This document shows positions 27,817 to 35,370 of a stretch of 64,000 bases of DNA, in pieces; positions within the stretch are counted from its first letter, which is position 1, and the number at the start of each line of letters is the position of its first letter. Both the position numbers and the translations under genes were made by a program. Below the pieces are notes generated by a model, which saw nothing but the letters and a program-made list of their open reading frames with translations, had not been told where the DNA came from and did not search any database. Source of the DNA: Rhodococcus jostii RHA1 (GTDB taxonomy: Bacteria; Actinomycetota; Actinomycetes; Mycobacteriales; Mycobacteriaceae); assembly GCF_000014565.1 (NCBI RefSeq), contig NC_008268.1, forward strand, positions 6,328,501-6,392,500. The letters run 5' to 3'.

Positions 27817-28371
27817 ATGGGCATCGAGGAGAAGCTGCCGAGCGGCTTCCTGCTGACCACGGTCGAGGGGCTCGCGGGCTATGTCCGCAAGGGCTCGCTG
27901 TGGCCGGCGAGTTTCGGGCTCGCCTGCTGTGCGATCGAGATGATGGCCACCGCCGGCGGACGCTTCGACATCGCCCGTTTCGGCATGGAGGCGTTCCGGG
28001 CGTCGCCGCGGCAGGCGGACCTGATGATCGTGGCGGGCCGGGTGAGTCAGAAGATGGCCCCGGTGCTGCGGCAGATCTACGACCAGATGGTGGAGCCGAA
28101 GTGGGTGCTGGCGATGGGTGTCTGCGCGTCGTCGGGCGGCATGTTCAACAACTACGCGATCGTGCAGGGCGTCGACCACATCGTGCCGGTGGACATCTAT
28201 CTGCCCGGGTGCCCGCCGCGGCCGGAGATGCTGCTGAACGCGATCCTCACCTTGCACGAGAAGATCCAGCAGATGCCGCTCGGTGTTCACCGCGAGGAGG
28301 TGGCGCGTGCGGCGGAGCAGGCGGCGCTGGCCGCCACCCCCACCATCCAGATGAAGGGCCTTCTGAGATGA
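27817..28371 (+). CDS. nuoB: NADH-quinone oxidoreductase subunit B
   Basis: A 184-residue subunit carrying iron-sulfur cluster N2, the last electron carrier before quinone. Cluster ligands: the Cys37-Cys38 pair in [10 protein letters not shown], Cys103 in [10 protein letters not shown] and Cys132 in GCPPRP. It follows nuoA by 49 bases with AAGAGAAGAG near the ATG. Codon third positions here are mostly C, unlike the following nuoC. The stop (TGA 28369-28371) overlaps an ATG at 28368 that opens only the short frame running into the repeat. Confidence 0.96.
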
Positions 28372-28565
28372 CCGGCGCGGGCGAGGGAGTGAAGCGGACC
28401 GAGATTCAGCGACGGGGCCGTGTGGTGGTGTCGAGGGAGCGAAGCGAGCCGAGCAGAAGGTGCCGGGGCGGTGTGGTGGTGTCGAGGGAGCGAAGCGAGC
28501 CGAGCAGAAGGTGCCGGAGCCGTGCGGTCTGGACTGAGGAGCGAGGGAGCGTAGCGAGTGAGTGA
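28368..28565 (+). other. Short upstream frame at the nuoB/nuoC junction (likely original nuoC start)
   Basis: ATG 28368 overlaps the nuoB stop as ATGA, the spacing seen at most nuo junctions. It encodes 65 residues ([18 protein letters not shown], then repeat-derived Arg/Ser-rich sequence) and stops at TGA 28563-28565, eight bases overlapping the nuoC GTG at 28558. It is in a different frame from nuoC. I read it as the original nuoC initiation region split from its gene by the repeat; translation of it would bring ribosomes to the nuoC start. Confidence 0.5.
28420..28521 (+). repeat. 51-base tandem duplication upstream of nuoC
   Basis: Two head-to-tail copies, 28420-28470 and 28471-28521, starting GTGTGGTGGTGTCGAGG and differing only at the end (GGGGCG versus GGAGCC). 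The unit is 17 codons, so it leaves the upstream frame intact. It contains the short motif AGCGAAGCGAGCCGAG found on the other side of the cassette too. Confidence 0.9.
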
Positions 28566-28618
28566 CGAGGGAAGACCGCACGACCAAGCTCCGGCACAAG
28601 CGAGCAAAGCGAGCCGAG
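28511..28618 (+). repeat. Start-codon-carrying repeat cassette, nuoC copy
   Basis: A 46-base core (28529-28574) is identical at 42 positions to 32864-32909 before nuoG; all four differences are C/T. Arms 28511-28530 and 28573-28597 pair (20 pairs with a five-base bulge), putting the core in a loop. The core holds GGGAG eight bases before GTG 28558 and encodes VSDEGR. A copy of the AGCGAGC(A)AAGCGAGCCGAG motif closes the right side. See the nuoG copy at 32817-32953. Confidence 0.85.
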
Positions 28619-29280
28619 TTACAGAACAGATCGGTGTGCGCAAGGGTTTGTTCGGGGTGCGGGGTAGTGGGGACACGTCGGGGTATGGGCGGTTGGTGCG
28701 TCCGGTGTTGTTGCCGGGGAGTACGCCGCGGCCGTTCGGGGGGTATTTCGATGATGTCGCGGATGGGTTGGGGGCGGCGTTGGCGGAGTCGGGTGTGGGT
28801 TTCGAGGTGGCGATCGAGTCGGTTGTGGTGTTTCGGGGTGAGGTGACGTTCGGGGTGCGGCGCGAGTTCTTGCCGTTGGTGGCGCGTGTGTTGCGTGATG
28901 AGCCGGATTTGCGGTTCGAGATGTGTCTGGGTGTGAATGGTGTGCATTTCCCGCAGGATGCGGGCCGGGAGTTGCATGCGGTGTATCCGTTGTTGTCGAT
29001 TACGCACAATCGGCGGATTCGTTTGGAGGTGGCGGCACCGGATGCGGATCCGCACATCCCGTCGTTGTATGAGGTGTATCCGACGAATGATTGGCACGAG
29101 CGGGAGACGTACGACTTTTTCGGGATCGTGTTCGATGGTCATCCGTCGTTGACGCGGATCGAGATGCCGGATGACTGGCCGGGTCATCCGCAGCGGAAGG
29201 ATTATCCGCTCGGCGGTATTCCGGTCGAGTACAAGGGCGCGGAGATCGCGCCGCCCGACGAACGGCGGGGGTACAACTGA
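28558..29280 (+). CDS. nuoC: NADH-quinone oxidoreductase subunit C
   Basis: A 240-residue peripheral-arm subunit (30-kDa family), ending in the signature [27 protein letters not shown] and [11 protein letters not shown]. It packs against NuoD near the quinone site. The only start with a ribosome-binding site is GTG 28558, inside the repeat; hence residues 1-20 or so ([20 protein letters not shown]) are repeat-derived and the native-looking sequence begins at [10 protein letters not shown]. Third codon positions are mainly G or T (2 of 20 end in C at 28921-28980), contrasting with nuoB (12 of 20 at 28141-28200). It overlaps nuoD by one base. Confidence 0.93.
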
Positions 29281-30596
29281 TGAGCGAGGACACGGTTTTC
29301 ACTGTCGCGGGTCAGGACTGGGACGACGTTGTCGATGCGGTGAAGGCGTCGTCGGGTGGTGGGGGTTCGGAGGGCGGCGAGGAGCGGATCGTCGTCAATA
29401 TGGGTCCGCAGCATCCGTCGACGCATGGGGTGTTGCGGCTCATCTTGGAAATCGAGGGTGAGACGGTCACGGAGGCCCGGTGCGGTATCGGTTATCTGCA
29501 TACGGGTATCGAGAAGAACCTCGAGTATCGGACGTGGACGCAGGGCGTGACGTTTGTGACGCGGATGGATTACCTGTCGCCGTTCTTCAATGAGACGGCG
29601 TATTGCCTCGGTGTGGAGAAGTTGCTGGACATCACGGATGAGGTGCCGGAGCGGGCGAGTGTCATCCGGGTGATGTTGATGGAGCTCAACCGCATCTCTT
29701 CGCATCTGGTGGCGTTGGCCACGGGTGGTATGGAGTTGGGGGCGGTCACGGCGATGCTGTTCGGTTTCCGGGAGCGTGAGCTGGTTCTGGACGTGTTCGA
29801 GATGATCACGGGTCTCCGCATGAATCATGCGTATATCCGGCCGGGTGGTTTGTCGCAGGATCTGCCGGAGGGTGCGGTGGAGAAGGTGCGCGAGTTGCTC
29901 GCGTTGATGCCGGAACGGCTGCGGGACATGGAGAATCTGCTCAACGACAACCGCATCTGGAAGGGGCGTACGCAGGGCATCGGGTATCTGGACCTCACGG
30001 GGTGCATGGCGCTCGGTATCACGGGTCCGATGCTGCGGGCGACGGGTCTGCCGCACGATCTGCGGAAGTCGCAGCCGTATTGCGGTTACGAGAATTACGA
30101 GTTCGATGTCAGTACCGATACGGGGTGTGACGCGTACGGCCGCTATTTGATCCGGGTCGACGAGATGAAGGAGTCGCTGAAGATCGTCGAGCAGTGCCTC
30201 GACAAGTTGCGGCCGGGCCCGATCATGGCGGAGGACAAGAAGATCGCGTGGCCGGCGGATCTGACGTTGGGTCCCGACGGTCTGGGTAATTCGCCCGGGC
30301 ACGTCCGCGAGATCATGGATTCTTCGATGGAGTCGCTGATCCATCACTTCAAGTTGGTGACGGAGGGTTTCCGGGTGCCGCCGGGTCAGGTGTATGTGGC
30401 AGTGGAGTCGCCGCGGGGTGAGCTCGGTGTGCACATGGTGAGCGATGGCGGCACCCGCCCGTTTCGGGTGCATTTCCGGGATCCGTCGTTCACGAACCTG
30501 CAGTCGGTTGCGGCCACGTGTGAGGGCGGCATGGTTGCGGATGTCATTGCGGCGGTTGCGAGTATCGATCCGGTGATGGGGGGCGTGGACCGATGA
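29280..30596 (+). CDS. nuoD: NADH-quinone oxidoreductase subunit D
   Basis: A 438-residue 49-kDa subunit that forms the quinone-binding pocket with NuoB. Signature: [22 protein letters not shown] with the quinone-headgroup His, then [30 protein letters not shown] and MMGGVDR-type C-terminus (DPVMGGVDR). It shares the G/T-ending codon style of nuoC, so the unusual block covers both genes and fades in nuoE. ATG 29280 overlaps nuoC's stop, and its stop overlaps nuoE. Confidence 0.96.
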
Positions 30597-31516
30597 CCGA
30601 GCAAGCAGCACCGAAGCAAACCCCCATCTTCATCGAGTTCGGCCCCCGGCCGGAGGAGAACGGGCTGTTGGTGCGGCCGGGTGCGCGTGAGGAGTATCCG
30701 CCGGAGGTCGGTGCGCGGCTGGACGCCGATGCCGACGTCGTCATCGGGCGTTACCCGAATTCGCGGTCCGCGCTGTTGCCGCTGCTGCATCTGGTGCAGG
30801 CGGAGGACGGGTGCATCACGCCGGCGGGGATCGAGTTCTGTGCCGGCCGGCTCGGGTTGACCGGCGCCGAGGTGGCTGCGGTGGCGACCTTCTATTCGAT
30901 GTACCGGCGCGACCCGACGGGCGACTACTACGTCGGAGTGTGCACCAACACGTTGTGCGCGATCATGGGCGGCGACGCGATCCTCGCCGCGCTGGAGGAG
31001 CATCTCGACCTGCCGCACGGTGGCACGTCCGCGGACGGCAAGGTCACGCTGGAGCACATCGAGTGCAATGCGGCGTGCGATTACGCCCCGGTGGTGATGG
31101 TCAACTGGGAGTTCTTCGACAATCAGACCCCGGAGTCGGCTCGCTCACTCGTCGATTCCCTGCGTTCGGGGGAGCGGGTGTCGCCGAGCCGCGGTGCGGC
31201 GCTGTGCACTTTCCGGGAGACGGCCCGTATTCTCGCCGGGTTCCCCGACGAGCGTCCCGGTGCGCCGGCGGAGGGCGGCACCGCGGGCGACGCCACACTC
31301 GCCGGACTGCGTGTGGCGCACGAACGGGGCATGACGGCGCCGGATCCGGCGGAGACGTCGCTGATCCCGGAGCCGGCGTCGCGGAACACCGAGCCGATGG
31401 CGGCGGAATCGGCGAAGGACCAGCCGGCGCCTGCCCCGTCCGCGACGGTGCCCCCGGATCGGTCCACCTCGGAGACGGATCCGGCGGCCACCGACCCGGG
31501 TCGAAAGGGAGACTGA
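30593..31516 (+). CDS. nuoE: NADH-quinone oxidoreductase subunit E with long C-terminal tail
   Basis: A 307-residue subunit. The 24-kDa [2Fe-2S] domain has Cys117 and Cys122 (GVCTNTLC) and Cys158 and Cys162 (IECNAAC), the N1a ligands. From about residue 215 a low-complexity Pro/Ala/Glu/Ser-rich tail of about 90 residues follows; the core family ends near residue 210, so this is an actinobacterial extension of unknown role. It forms the NADH-oxidising module with NuoF and NuoG. ATG overlaps the nuoD stop (ATGA). Confidence 0.95.
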
Positions 31517-31517
31517 C

Positions 31518-32816
31518 ATGCCGCTGACCCCTGTACTGAGCCGCTACTGGGACGAGCCCGAGTCGTGGACCCTCGACACGTACCGTCGCCACGACGGGTA
31601 CGAGGGCCTGCAGAAGGCGCTGCGCATGGACCCCGACGAGGTCATCTCGACCGTCAAGGAGGCCGGACTGCGGGGTCGTGGTGGGGCCGGGTTCCCGACC
31701 GGGATGAAGTGGTCGTTCATCCCGCAGGGCGACGCCAAGCCGCACTACCTCGTGGTCAACGCCGACGAGTCGGAACCGGGCACCTGCAAGGACATGCCGC
31801 TCATGCTGGCGACGCCCCACGCGCTCGTCGAGGGCGTCATCATCGCGGCGTACGCGATCCGCGCCGGGCACGCCTTCATCTATGTGCGCGGTGAGGTGGT
31901 ACCGGTGCTGCGCCGACTGCAGGCCGCGGTCGCGGAGGCGTATGCGGCTGGCTACCTCGGCACGAACATCCTGGACAGCGGTTTCGACCTCGAACTGGTC
32001 GTGCACGCGGGTGCGGGGGCGTACATCTGCGGGGAGGAGACGGCGCTGCTCGATTCGCTGGAGGGTCGCCGCGGTCAGCCTCGGTTGCGTCCGCCGTTCC
32101 CCGCGGTGGCCGGTCTCTACGCGTCACCGACCGTCGTCAACAACGTGGAGTCGATTGCGAGCGTCCCGCCGATCATCGTGAACGGCATCGAGTGGTTCCG
32201 GTCGATGGGCAGCGAGAAGTCGCCCGGCTTCACCCTGTACTCCCTGTCCGGGCACGTGACGAAGCCCGGACAGTACGAGGCCCCGCTCGGAATCACCCTG
32301 CGGGAGTTGCTCGAGTACGCGGGCGGAGTCCGTGCCGGGCACCGGTTGAAGTTCTGGACTCCGGGCGGTTCCTCGACACCGATCTTCACCGACGAGCATC
32401 TCGACGTCGCCCTCGACTACGAGGGTGTGGGGGCCGCCGGGTCGATGCTGGGCACCAAGGCCCTGCAGATCTTCGACGAGACCACGTGCGTGGTGCGTGC
32501 CGTGCTGCGCTGGACCGAGTTCTATGCGCACGAGTCGTGTGGCAAGTGCACGCCCTGCCGGGAAGGCACCTATTGGCTGGTGCAGATCCTGGAGCGCCTC
32601 GAAAGGGGGGAGGGGACCGACGCCGATCTGGAGAAACTGCTCGACATTGCCGACAACATCCTCGGCAAGTCGTTCTGCGCTCTCGGTGACGGTGCGGCCA
32701 GCCCGATCATGTCTTCCATCAAGTACTTCCGCGACGAGTACCTCGCACACTTCGAGCAGGGCGGCTGCCCGTTCGACCCGCATCAGTCCACGCTCATGGC
32801 GGGAGTGCATGCATGA
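31518..32816 (+). CDS. nuoF: NADH-quinone oxidoreductase subunit F
   Basis: A 432-residue 51-kDa subunit binding FMN and [17 protein letters not shown] is the NADH/FMN glycine loop, [12 protein letters not shown] and [19 protein letters not shown] line the flavin, and [11 protein letters not shown] supplies three of the four ligands of cluster N3. It takes hydride from NADH into the iron-sulfur chain. ATG 31518 lies one base after nuoE. The stop (TGA 32814-32816) is immediately before the second repeat cassette. Confidence 0.97.
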
Positions 32817-32896
32817 AGCCAGCGAGCGTAGCGAGCGATGTTTCGGCGCGGAGGCCGCGCGTTCTGGACCGAGGAGCGAGGGAGCGCAGCGAGTGA
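32813..32896 (+). other. 27-residue upstream frame at the nuoF/nuoG junction
   Basis: ATG 32813 overlaps the nuoF stop (ATGA) and encodes 27 residues, [18 protein letters not shown] onward, through the cassette to TGA 32894-32896. That stop overlaps the nuoG GTG (GTGA) by four bases. This mirrors the arrangement before nuoC and is probably the remnant of the original nuoG start that now couples nuoF to nuoG translation. Confidence 0.5.
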
Positions 32897-32953
32897 GCGA
32901 TGAGGGAAGGGCGCGTGTGAAGGGCTCCGCGCCAGCGAGCGTAGCGAGCCATG
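32817..32953 (+). repeat. Start-codon-carrying repeat cassette, nuoG copy
   Basis: The 46-base core at 32864-32909 matches the nuoC copy (42 of 46). It is flanked by 18-base perfect direct repeats CCAGCGAGCGTAGCGAGC at 32819-32836 and 32932-32949. Arms GGCGCGGAG (32845-32853) and CTCCGCGCC (32925-32933) can pair, with CGCGC/GCGCG inside. The core carries GGGAG eight bases before GTG 32893 and encodes VSDEGR. Confidence 0.85.
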
Positions 32954-35370
32954 ATACGAGCCCTGACGCAGTGAGCGTTGTCATCGACGGTGTCGAGGTC
33001 AGTGTTCCCAAGGGCACGTTGGTGATTCGTGCCGCGGAGATGATCGGTATTCAGATCCCGCGGTTCTGCGACCACCCGTTGCTCGATCCGGTCGGCGCCT
33101 GCCGTCAGTGCCTCGTCGACGTGGAGGGGCAGCGCAAGCCGCTCGCTTCCTGCACCACGACGGTCACCGACGGCATGGTCGTCCGCACCCAGCTCACGTC
33201 GCCCGTCGCCGACAAGGCGCAGAAGGGTGTGATGGAGTTGCTGCTGATCAACCATCCCCTGGACTGCCCGGTGTGCGACAAGGGCGGCGAGTGCCCGCTG
33301 CAGAATCAGGCGATGTCCAACGGGCGCGCGGAGTCGCGCTTCGGGGAGGTCAAACGCACGTTCCCCAAACCGATTCCGCTGTCCACGGAGGTCCTGCTGG
33401 ACCGCGAGCGGTGTGTGTTGTGCGCGCGGTGTACCCGGTTCTCCCAGCAGGTCGCCGGCGACCCGTTCATCGAACTCATGGAACGGGGCGCGCTGCAGCA
33501 GGTCGGGATCTACGCGAAGGAACCGTTCGAGTCGTACTTCTCCGGTAACACCGTCCAGATCTGCCCGGTGGGTGCGCTGACCGGTTCGGCGTACCGGTTC
33601 CGGGCCCGCCCGTTCGACCTGGTCTCCAGCCCCAGCGTCTGCGAGCACTGTGCGAGCGGGTGCGCCCAGCGCACCGACCACCGGCGGGGGAAGGTGCTGC
33701 GCCGGCTGGCGGGCGACGATCCCGAGGTCAACGAGGAGTGGAATTGCGACAAGGGGAGGTGGGCGTTCGCCTACGCCACCGAGCGGGACCGGATCACCGC
33801 CCCGCTGGTCCGCGGCGACGACGGCACGCTGGCACCCGCCTCCTGGTCCGAGGCCCTGGCCGTCGCGGCGCGGGGATTGGCCGCCGCGCGGGGCAACGCC
33901 GGTGTTCTCGTCGGGGGGCGGTCCACGTGGGAGGACGCCTACGCCTACGCGAAGTTCGCGCGAACAGCGCTCGGCACCAACGACATCGACTTCCGCAGTC
34001 GCGCGCACTCCGGCGAGGAGTCCGAATTCCTGGCGGCCCGGGTGGCGGGGCAGCGATTCGCGGTCACGTACGAGGATCTCGACGCCGCGCCGGTCGTCCT
34101 TCTCGCGGCGTTCGAGCCGGAGGAGGAATCACCGATCGTCTTTCTGCGGCTGCGCAAGGCCGTGCGGGCGAAGGCCGTTCCGGTCTACTCGATCGCGCCG
34201 TACACGTCCCGTGGCCTGGAGAAGATGTCCGGCCGGCTGCTGCGGTCCGCCCCGAATGCGGAGGCGGAAGTGCTCGACGGTCTCCGCACGGGTGATCTGG
34301 AGCCCGGTGTCACCGAGCTGCTGCGCAGGCCGGGTGCGGTCATCGTGGTCGGGGAGAGACTCGCCGGGGTGCCGGGGGCGCTGTCCGCGGCGGTGCGGCT
34401 GGCCGACGAGACCGGGGCCCGGCTGGCCTGGGTGCCGCGCCGGGCCGGCGAACGCGGCGCACTGGAGGCGGGCGCGCTGCCCGGACTGCTCCCGGGTGGC
34501 CGACCGGTGGCCGATCCGGAGGCGCGGCGGCAGGTCGCGTCCGTGTGGAACATCGCGGATCTGCCGGAGACGGCAGGCCGGGATACCGCGGGCATCCTCG
34601 CCGCGGCCGAGGCGAAGACGCTCGGGGCGCTCGTGATCGGCGGTGTCGAGGCCGACGATCTCCCCGACCCGCAGGCCGCGTTGGCCGCCGTCGAGTCGGC
34701 AGGTTTCGTGGTGAGTCTGGAACTGCGGCACAGTGCGATCAGCGAGCGCGCGGACGTGGTGTTCCCCATCGCACCGGTCATGGAGAAGCCGGGCACCTTC
34801 CTCGACTGGGAAGGGCGCGCACGCGATTTCGACGCCGCCCTCCGCGCCACCGGGTCGATGCCCGATCAGCGGGTGCTGCACGCGATCGCCGGCGAAATGG
34901 GTGTCTCGCTCGGTCTTCCGGACGCCGCGACCGCACGGCGCGAACTGGAGAGGCTCGGCGCCTGGGACGGAGAATTCCCGGATCCGCCCGGCCACCCGCA
35001 CCCGCCGCGGCGGGAACCCGGGCCGGGGGAGGCGGTGCTCGCCACCTGGCGGATGCTGCTCGACTCGGGACGACTGCAGGACGGGGAACCGCACCTGGCG
35101 GGCACTGCCCGGACGCCGGTCGTGCGGATGTCCGCGGTCTCGGCGGCCGAGTCGGGTGCCGGTGACGGAGATCCGGTCACCGTGACGACGGAACGGGGCG
35201 CCGTCACGCTGCCGTTGGTGATCACCGACATGCCGGATCGAGTGGTGTGGCTGCCGCTCAACTCGCCCGGATCCGCTGTCTACCCGCAACTGGCTGCCCG
35301 GGCGGGGAGCGTCGTGAACGTCCGCCGCGCGGCCGGCACCAACGGGATCGTCCCGGGAGGTGCGCTGTGA
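32893..35370 (+). CDS. nuoG: NADH-quinone oxidoreductase subunit G
   Basis: An 825-residue subunit. The N-terminal ferredoxin-like part holds [21 protein letters not shown] (N1b), then [23 protein letters not shown] (N5, N4) and [27 protein letters not shown] matches the extra N7-type cluster loop. The rest is molybdopterin-oxidoreductase-like without cofactor. GTG 32893 in the repeat has the good Shine-Dalgarno sequence; GTG 32971 ([15 protein letters not shown]) is where the family-like sequence begins and could be the original or an alternative start, giving 799 residues. The stop overlaps nuoH's start. Confidence 0.94.

Follow-up and report, generated by a model that had tools for sequence, protein, structure and literature searches.

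A dispersed hairpin repeat that appears to supply translation starts in the nuo operon of a Rhodococcus clade

The stretch of DNA analysed here, called the window below, comprises 64,000 nucleotides (nt) of Rhodococcus jostii RHA1 (contig NC_008268.1, positions 6,328,501 to 6,392,500) and contains the nuo operon. Two gene junctions of this operon, nuoB/nuoC (B/C) and nuoF/nuoG (F/G), carry a hairpin-forming element whose loop holds a putative start codon for the downstream gene. At the B/C junction, nuoB (27817-28371; Pfam Oxidored_q6) is followed by the element at 28499-28598 and by nuoC, which spans 28558-29280 when read from the GTG of the element (Pfam Complex1_30kDa). At the F/G junction, nuoF (31518-32816; Pfam Complex1_51K and NADH_4Fe-4S) is followed by the element at 32834-32933 and by nuoG, which spans 32893-35370 when read in the same way (Pfam Fer2_4, NADH-G_4Fe-4S_3 and Molybdopterin). 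All these features lie on the plus strand.

The initial annotation had described a start module before nuoG as the second copy of one before nuoC, and this second copy proved to be real. The cores at 32864-32909 and 28529-28574 are identical at 42 of 46 bases, with all four mismatches being C/T, and both have a Shine-Dalgarno-like GGGAG placed 8 nt before a GTG (32880-32884 with GTG 32893-32895, and 28545-28549 with GTG 28558-28560). The two GTGs, the proposed starts of nuoG and nuoC, begin the same VSDEGR peptide, and their frames run without interruption into NuoG and NuoC. As also described, the ATG at 32813, the old start that overlaps nuoF, opens a 27-codon leader open reading frame (ORF; 32813-32896) whose TGA (32894-32896) overlaps GTG 32893, and the 18-base repeats at 32819-32836 and 32932-32949 match each other without a mismatch. 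At the B/C junction, the old nuoB-overlapping ATG opens a leader of 65 codons (28368-28565), and its TGA starts 5 nt past the G of the new GTG. Within this leader, on the 5′ side of the hairpin, are two tandem units of 51 bp (28417-28518) that are rich in GAGCGAAGCGAGCCGAGCAG.

The element extends beyond the reported core. It spans about 100 nt and is built of an outer and an inner stem of 10 bp each, which are separated on the 3′ side by a bulge of 5 nt; the inner stem closes a conserved, purine-rich loop of 42 nt that corresponds to the core. In the F/G copy, the 5′ arms of the outer and inner stems lie at 32846-32855 and 32856-32865, the loop with GGGAG, start codon and stops at 32866-32907, the inner 3′ arm at 32908-32917, the bulge at 32918-32922 and the outer 3′ arm at 32923-32932. 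The predicted folding energy of this copy with its flanks is -52 kcal/mol, and values of about -50 kcal/mol were obtained for many nuo copies. The covariance model R1 matched the F/G copy (G000:C1:6361334-6361433, E 1.1e-20) and the B/C copy (G000:C1:6356999-6357098, E 4.1e-23), both of which were among the sequences used for building the model.

The sequences of the stems vary among copies, with complementarity being kept. In alignment A2, which holds 21 nuo copies (20 distinct) out of the 25 found by a regular-expression scan of nuo operons and leaves out as 5′-truncated or divergent those of G009, G006 and G014 and the second F/G copy of G027, 94.5% of the cells were paired compared to 83.1% after shuffling, and 13 of the 20 pairs had changed on both sides. 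The covariation score was 0.418 against 0.201 for shuffled alignments; none of 500 shuffles reached the observed value on four measures, five did so on pair types, and slid controls did not exceed 0.096. When copies from other genera were added (alignment A1, 29 of 36 copies, with the second Antrihabitans copy, RYN_2 and clean1703 also left out), the score was 0.481 against 0.168. For the B/C orthologues alone (alignment A3, one copy from each of 10 of 11 genomes, without G009), it was 0.346 against 0.156, with 0 of 500 shuffles as high and 11 of 500 on pair types. Counting all copies (35 distinct), 19 of the 20 pairs were paired in 23-33 of the 35, and the remaining one in 18. Single-sequence folds departed from the consensus in G006, G014, G009, the second Antrihabitans copy, four copies of genus g11 and clean1703. 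A search of Rfam (release 15) gave no match at E ≤1 in window positions 28300-33100, and none at the gathering score for the element from six sources.

In a DNA search across the window genome (9.7 Mb), the F/G element recovered the B/C element at E 5e-16, which is beyond chance, and both this search and the hairpin model gave only these two copies, both in nuo. The short motif GAGCGnAGCGAG (at most one mismatch) had seven matches in the window, a number equalled in 11 of 100 shuffles, so that the motif alone is not beyond chance; as a genome-wide repeat it was rejected, with 24 matches against 25 for a reversed control pattern. Judged by eye, GAGCGnAGCGAGC showed no clear excess above its control in a listing of 101 genomes. 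The F/G copy had no match at E 1e-5 in a plasmid collection and thus gave no sign of a plasmid origin. As for the 18-bp repeats, a target-site duplication was not favoured, as they match the 3′ tail of the element: the tail GCGAGCGnAGCGAGC (at most two mismatches) comes after 23 of the 25 nuo copies, among which 11 of the 13 genomes are represented. The repeat at 32932-32949 therefore looks like the element's own tail, and that at 32819-32836 is an upstream copy of it.

The covariance model was then applied to 28 genomes of the same genus, and it found 26 matches in 13 genomes, all within the nuo operon; most of the matched sequences had helped to build the model. The regular-expression scan found 25 copies, all in sense orientation and only at nuoB/C, nuoD/E (D/E; in three genomes) and nuoF/G, placed just after the ATGA-type stop/start overlaps of these junctions. 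A weak minus-strand match after nuo in G021 (6 substitutions, 2 indels) was dropped, and so was a short DNA match that lies outside nuo (G027:C2:2138704-2138739, 89%, E 3.2e-4) and was not confirmed by the hairpin model. In a tree of NuoB, NuoD, NuoF and NuoG, the 13 carriers form one clade (support 0.97), and the core is absent from the 15 other genus members, in which the B/C and F/G gaps are shorter than the element-bearing gaps except in G019. The 188-nt nuoB/C gap of that genome (L056), which has no element, holds an unrelated repeat, AGCTGGAAGCGGAGCTGACCATG. In the same tree, genomes under one genus label split into several separate nuo clades, pointing to a broad label or to a differing history of nuo. 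Loop column 54 is T in all 10 aligned B/C copies and C in all 7 F/G copies, across species. As this column is junction-specific and the carriers form one clade, both window copies look old, and the two independent insertions proposed by the initial annotation are not shown for the window genome.

The reading frames were conserved throughout the carriers. At all 21 element-bearing junctions of the 13 genomes, the last copy carries in its loop a GTG or ATG from which an open frame leads into the downstream gene, whereas the remaining two downstream frames are open at just 9 and 13 of the 21 junctions. Four copies are out of frame, and each of them precedes another copy in a tandem array. Thirteen spacings between the loop codon and the gene occur, and all are multiples of 3: 78, 90, 93, 126, 135 and 153 at B/C, 66, 69, 72, 78 and 102 at F/G, and 33 and 36 at D/E. 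Of the 25 nuo copies, 19 have GTG as the start triplet and 6 have ATG. For nuoC of G004, G016 and G027, the stretch from the nearest stop to the first homologous codon holds no in-frame ATG, GTG, TTG or CTG other than the loop GTG; G009 has one CTG besides it, and in the window the only other such triplet is the first homologous codon, which is also a GTG. The predicted accessibility of the ribosome-binding stretch was 0.62 on average for the 21 element starts and 0.39 for 81 other nuo starts, these being bare averages with low outliers such as 0.26 at F/G of G016.

Upstream of the loop codon lies the old coupled start, which overlaps the stop of the preceding gene and begins a leader of between 19 and 70 codons. 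At all 21 junctions the leader frame reaches the core without a stop, compared with 23 of 42 for the other two frames. In every case the leader terminates at position -6, +1 or +5 relative to a core start (2, 7 and 12 junctions, respectively), so that a stop lies within a few nucleotides of the next start, the arrangement expected for termination-reinitiation. Within -12 to +8 of the start, 13 of the 25 nuo copies have stops in three frames, 11 in two and 1 in one. At nuoF/G of G010 (L032), about five tandem units of ~31 bp stretch the leader to 70 codons, and its frame still ends at +5. In the reporter work of PMC10666635, about 20 nt between genes nearly abolished coupling by termination-reinitiation, which suggests why a leader would be retained; coupling would be expected to survive an insertion if each start still had a stop next to it.

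The element belongs to a dispersed family. Exact-pattern scans found the core in Antrihabitans stalagmiti and in two actinobacterial metagenome-assembled genomes (MAGs), although the exact pattern is biased to GTG/ATG copies because it requires a purine before TG. A slightly loose pattern matched 16 of 401 genomes of the taxonomic family and 2 of 397 of the order, both of the window's genus. With the hairpin model, dispersed copies were found in 12 of 13 chosen genomes (1-84 each): 84 in MAG RYN_227, 10-31 in each of seven g11 genomes, 4 in the second MAG and 1-16 in three of the four genomes of the Antrihabitans genus, with none in G142. A scan of the phylum at E 1e-4 with stricter filters matched 2 of 296 genomes, one being the window's own. 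As these model searches scored 146 (genus), 150 (chosen relatives) or 13 (phylum) candidates per genome out of thousands, weak copies may escape them. Twelve weaker model matches in G049 (genus g23; E 3e-9 to 1e-5) possibly represent a more distant branch of the family.

We surveyed the locations of 60 of the 260 tallied matches, from 7 of the 13 genomes, with a rough gene caller based on codon usage; several of these loci overlap. The flanking genes were convergent for 19 copies, tandem for 30 (15 of these copies being sense and 15 antisense) and divergent for 6; a further 2 copies were in an ORF and 3 at contig ends. By this caller 55 of the 60 were intergenic, a few of them running into the end of a gene for at most 15 nt. 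The 15 sense copies include the Antrihabitans nuo copy, whose nuoC the caller missed, which leaves 59 dispersed copies for the comparisons below. The largely intergenic positions, including the 19 convergent ones, would suit a hairpin that acts mainly on the mRNA (in processing, stability or attenuation) or as a protein-binding site, with the use of the start codon being secondary. The strong predicted fold and the conservation of the loop past GGGAG and the start codon are also in line with such a role. But it requires neither sense-only placement at gene joints nor strict keeping of the frame, and by eye the tracts lack the T run of an intrinsic terminator; we consider it improbable, at roughly one chance in five.

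The loops of the dispersed copies differ from those in nuo. GGGAG is present in 42 of the 59, and the triplet at the start position is CTG in 29, CCG in 11, GTG in 2, ATG in none and another in 17. Stops within -12 to +8 occur in no frame in 25 copies, in one frame in 25, in two in 7 and in three in 2, so that stops in at least two frames are found in 24 of 25 nuo copies versus 9 of 59 dispersed copies. Because start codon and stop cluster are both rare among the 59, they set the nuo copies apart, and the idea that the family loop always had clustered stops is not borne out, as 25 of the 59 have no stop there.

In A. stalagmiti, the nuoB/C junction also carries the element; the leader stops at +5, and the GTG (VSEEGS...) is in frame. 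By eye, the loop of this copy shares CTGACGA and GAGGAGGG with seven other sampled copies of its own genome and not with Rhodococcus, and at B/C the element is absent from three other genomes examined from the Antrihabitans genus. The simpler reading is an apparently independent insertion; an old shared insertion with later conversion is less likely but conceivable, as the Rhodococcus clade and Antrihabitans are neighbours in the nuo tree. At nuoF/G of L211 (G046, genus g20), a tail-like GCGAGCGGAGCGAGC is present, and the pattern scan found no core in that genome.

Considering that the clade copies follow ATGA-type overlaps and that Antrihabitans has an apparently independent copy at the same kind of junction, the element might target such overlaps when moving, as the initial annotation proposed for ATGA starts. 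This is very unlikely: the sampled dispersed copies are mostly intergenic in all orientations, with GTG at the start position in 2 of 59, and the model found no copies outside nuo in the 13 carrier genomes. Its suggestion of a portable initiation element appears to hold at the 21 nuo junctions. A core restricted to this operon had been named as a finding against that suggestion; the window's own genome does hold the core at just these two places, and the relatives reveal a larger repeat family. Because of that family, the other proposal, selective tolerance, fits best in the form of tolerance followed by co-option.

Taken together, we propose that a dispersed hairpin repeat resembling REP (see below) was domesticated as a stop-restart translation start module that serves nuoC and nuoG and, in three genomes, also nuoE, and that the old starts now open coupled leaders; we put the probability of this reading at about 0.72. 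The repeat family is dispersed in some other Mycobacteriales, most copies having GGGAG, mostly CTG or CCG at the start position and few stops. In one Rhodococcus clade, the nuo copies would have gained a stop cluster and a GTG or ATG in place of CTG or CCG, the loop codon becoming the start of the downstream nuo gene and the former start being retained as that of a short leader ORF. Having finished nuoB, nuoD or nuoF, a ribosome may then restart on the leader, open the hairpin, reach a stop in the loop no more than 6 nt from the new start and initiate once more on nuoC, nuoE or nuoG. More tentatively, and with odds of perhaps one in three, the nuo form may be a re-coupling cassette, with stops, ribosome-binding site and start in one loop, that is tolerated in a coupled operon, keeps stoichiometry and has been recruited repeatedly, in the Rhodococcus clade and in Antrihabitans.

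The repeat may instead have inserted where it did little harm and have no selected role, with nuoC, nuoE and nuoG starting inside or further down and the hairpin persisting by mutation and conversion. The element can be absent: G004 and G008 have no F/G copy and allow direct reading from the old start. Remnants resembling the 3′ tail, with scores of 19-30 where the D/E and F/G junctions of non-clade genomes score no higher than 9, are present at the copy-less F/G and D/E junctions of G009 and G024 and at F/G of G006 and G014. No remnant was seen at the other eight copy-less D/E junctions of the clade (scores 6-8) or at F/G of G004 (7), and that at F/G of G008 is weak (11). At B/C, outside genomes reach 10, so the scores of G006 (11) and G014 (7) carry no weight. 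Neutral tolerance would also be in keeping with a tail length that varies freely in multiples of 3 and with the existence of alternative nuoG starts. It accounts poorly for the covarying stems of the B/C orthologues in genomes where the model finds no copies elsewhere, for leader frames that are open at every junction, and for start triplets and stop clusters unlike those of the dispersed copies, and we regard it as rather unlikely.

Several observations weigh against domestication as a start module. The copies share descent, so that the counts given above are not counts of independent events. Later in-frame GTGs in nuoG make other starts possible, and 9 of the 59 dispersed copies have an ATG one base upstream of the position taken as the start, so that the contrast with nuo rests on 2 or 11 of 59. 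From the triplet, 46 of the 59 dispersed copies are open for 15 codons; an open 3′ half is thus not special to nuo. The openness of the leaders is due in part to base composition, given that 23 of 42 other frames are open as well, and at B/C of G010 and G024 (2 of 21 junctions) the leader ends at an upstream tandem copy and not at the functional one. With regard to the structure, the F/G copies alone (only 6 distinct) gave ambiguous covariation, and RNAalifold gave only -4.0 kcal/mol for the gapped alignment of all 36 copies. Among the nuo copies, those of G009, G006 and G014 and the second F/G copy of G027 no longer have the 5′ arm or the fold, which indicates that the hairpin is not indispensable.

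Literature listings contained no description of this repeat, and we compared it with known systems. Like REP/REPIN sequences, it is a short hairpin-forming repeat that in the relatives is dispersed and mostly lies between genes, whereas in the window genome its two copies are both in nuo. It differs from them in its length of ~100 nt, its long conserved loop and its variable, covarying stems, and in being confined, in the window clade, to one operon in which it appears to supply starts. REP/REPIN sequences are associated with a RAYT transposase and a GTAG/CGTC end tag, and the likeness here is one of hairpin and dispersal. Rickettsia palindromic elements (RPEs) insert in frame into protein genes and add an internal peptide. 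In the present case, stops in the loop end the incoming frame, a new start opens and only the later part of the element would be read, so the element does not stay in frame within a gene, and its likeness to RPEs is that of palindromic repeats inside protein genes, as described in PMC2635572. The junctions also recall the coupled ATGA/GTGA pairs of PMC10666635, 4-nt overlaps between subunit genes of one complex, but here the overlap has been broken up by the repeat, giving one stop/start site followed by another and a leader peptide encoded between the two. The loop further holds GGAGCGAGGGAGCG, close to the VK1 oligonucleotide named in PMC5442326 on AGCGA-quadruplexes. A four-tract motif (spacers 0-20, one strand) occurs in the nuo stretch of only 2 of the 13 genomes, the window's not among them, and a quadruplex is not supported.

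If true, the proposed history would mean that a repeat of the selfish type has turned into the translation start of a central respiratory complex. Three junctions in 13 species-level genomes, with apparent losses and an apparently independent recruitment, provide natural replicates, and they make a question on termination-reinitiation directly testable, namely by what means an operon can cope with 100 nt inserted at a stop/start overlap. The finding adds a structured repeat family without a match in Rfam 15, and it bears on the annotation of the N-termini of NuoC, NuoE and NuoG in R. opacus-type strains, which may begin at the loop codon of the element.

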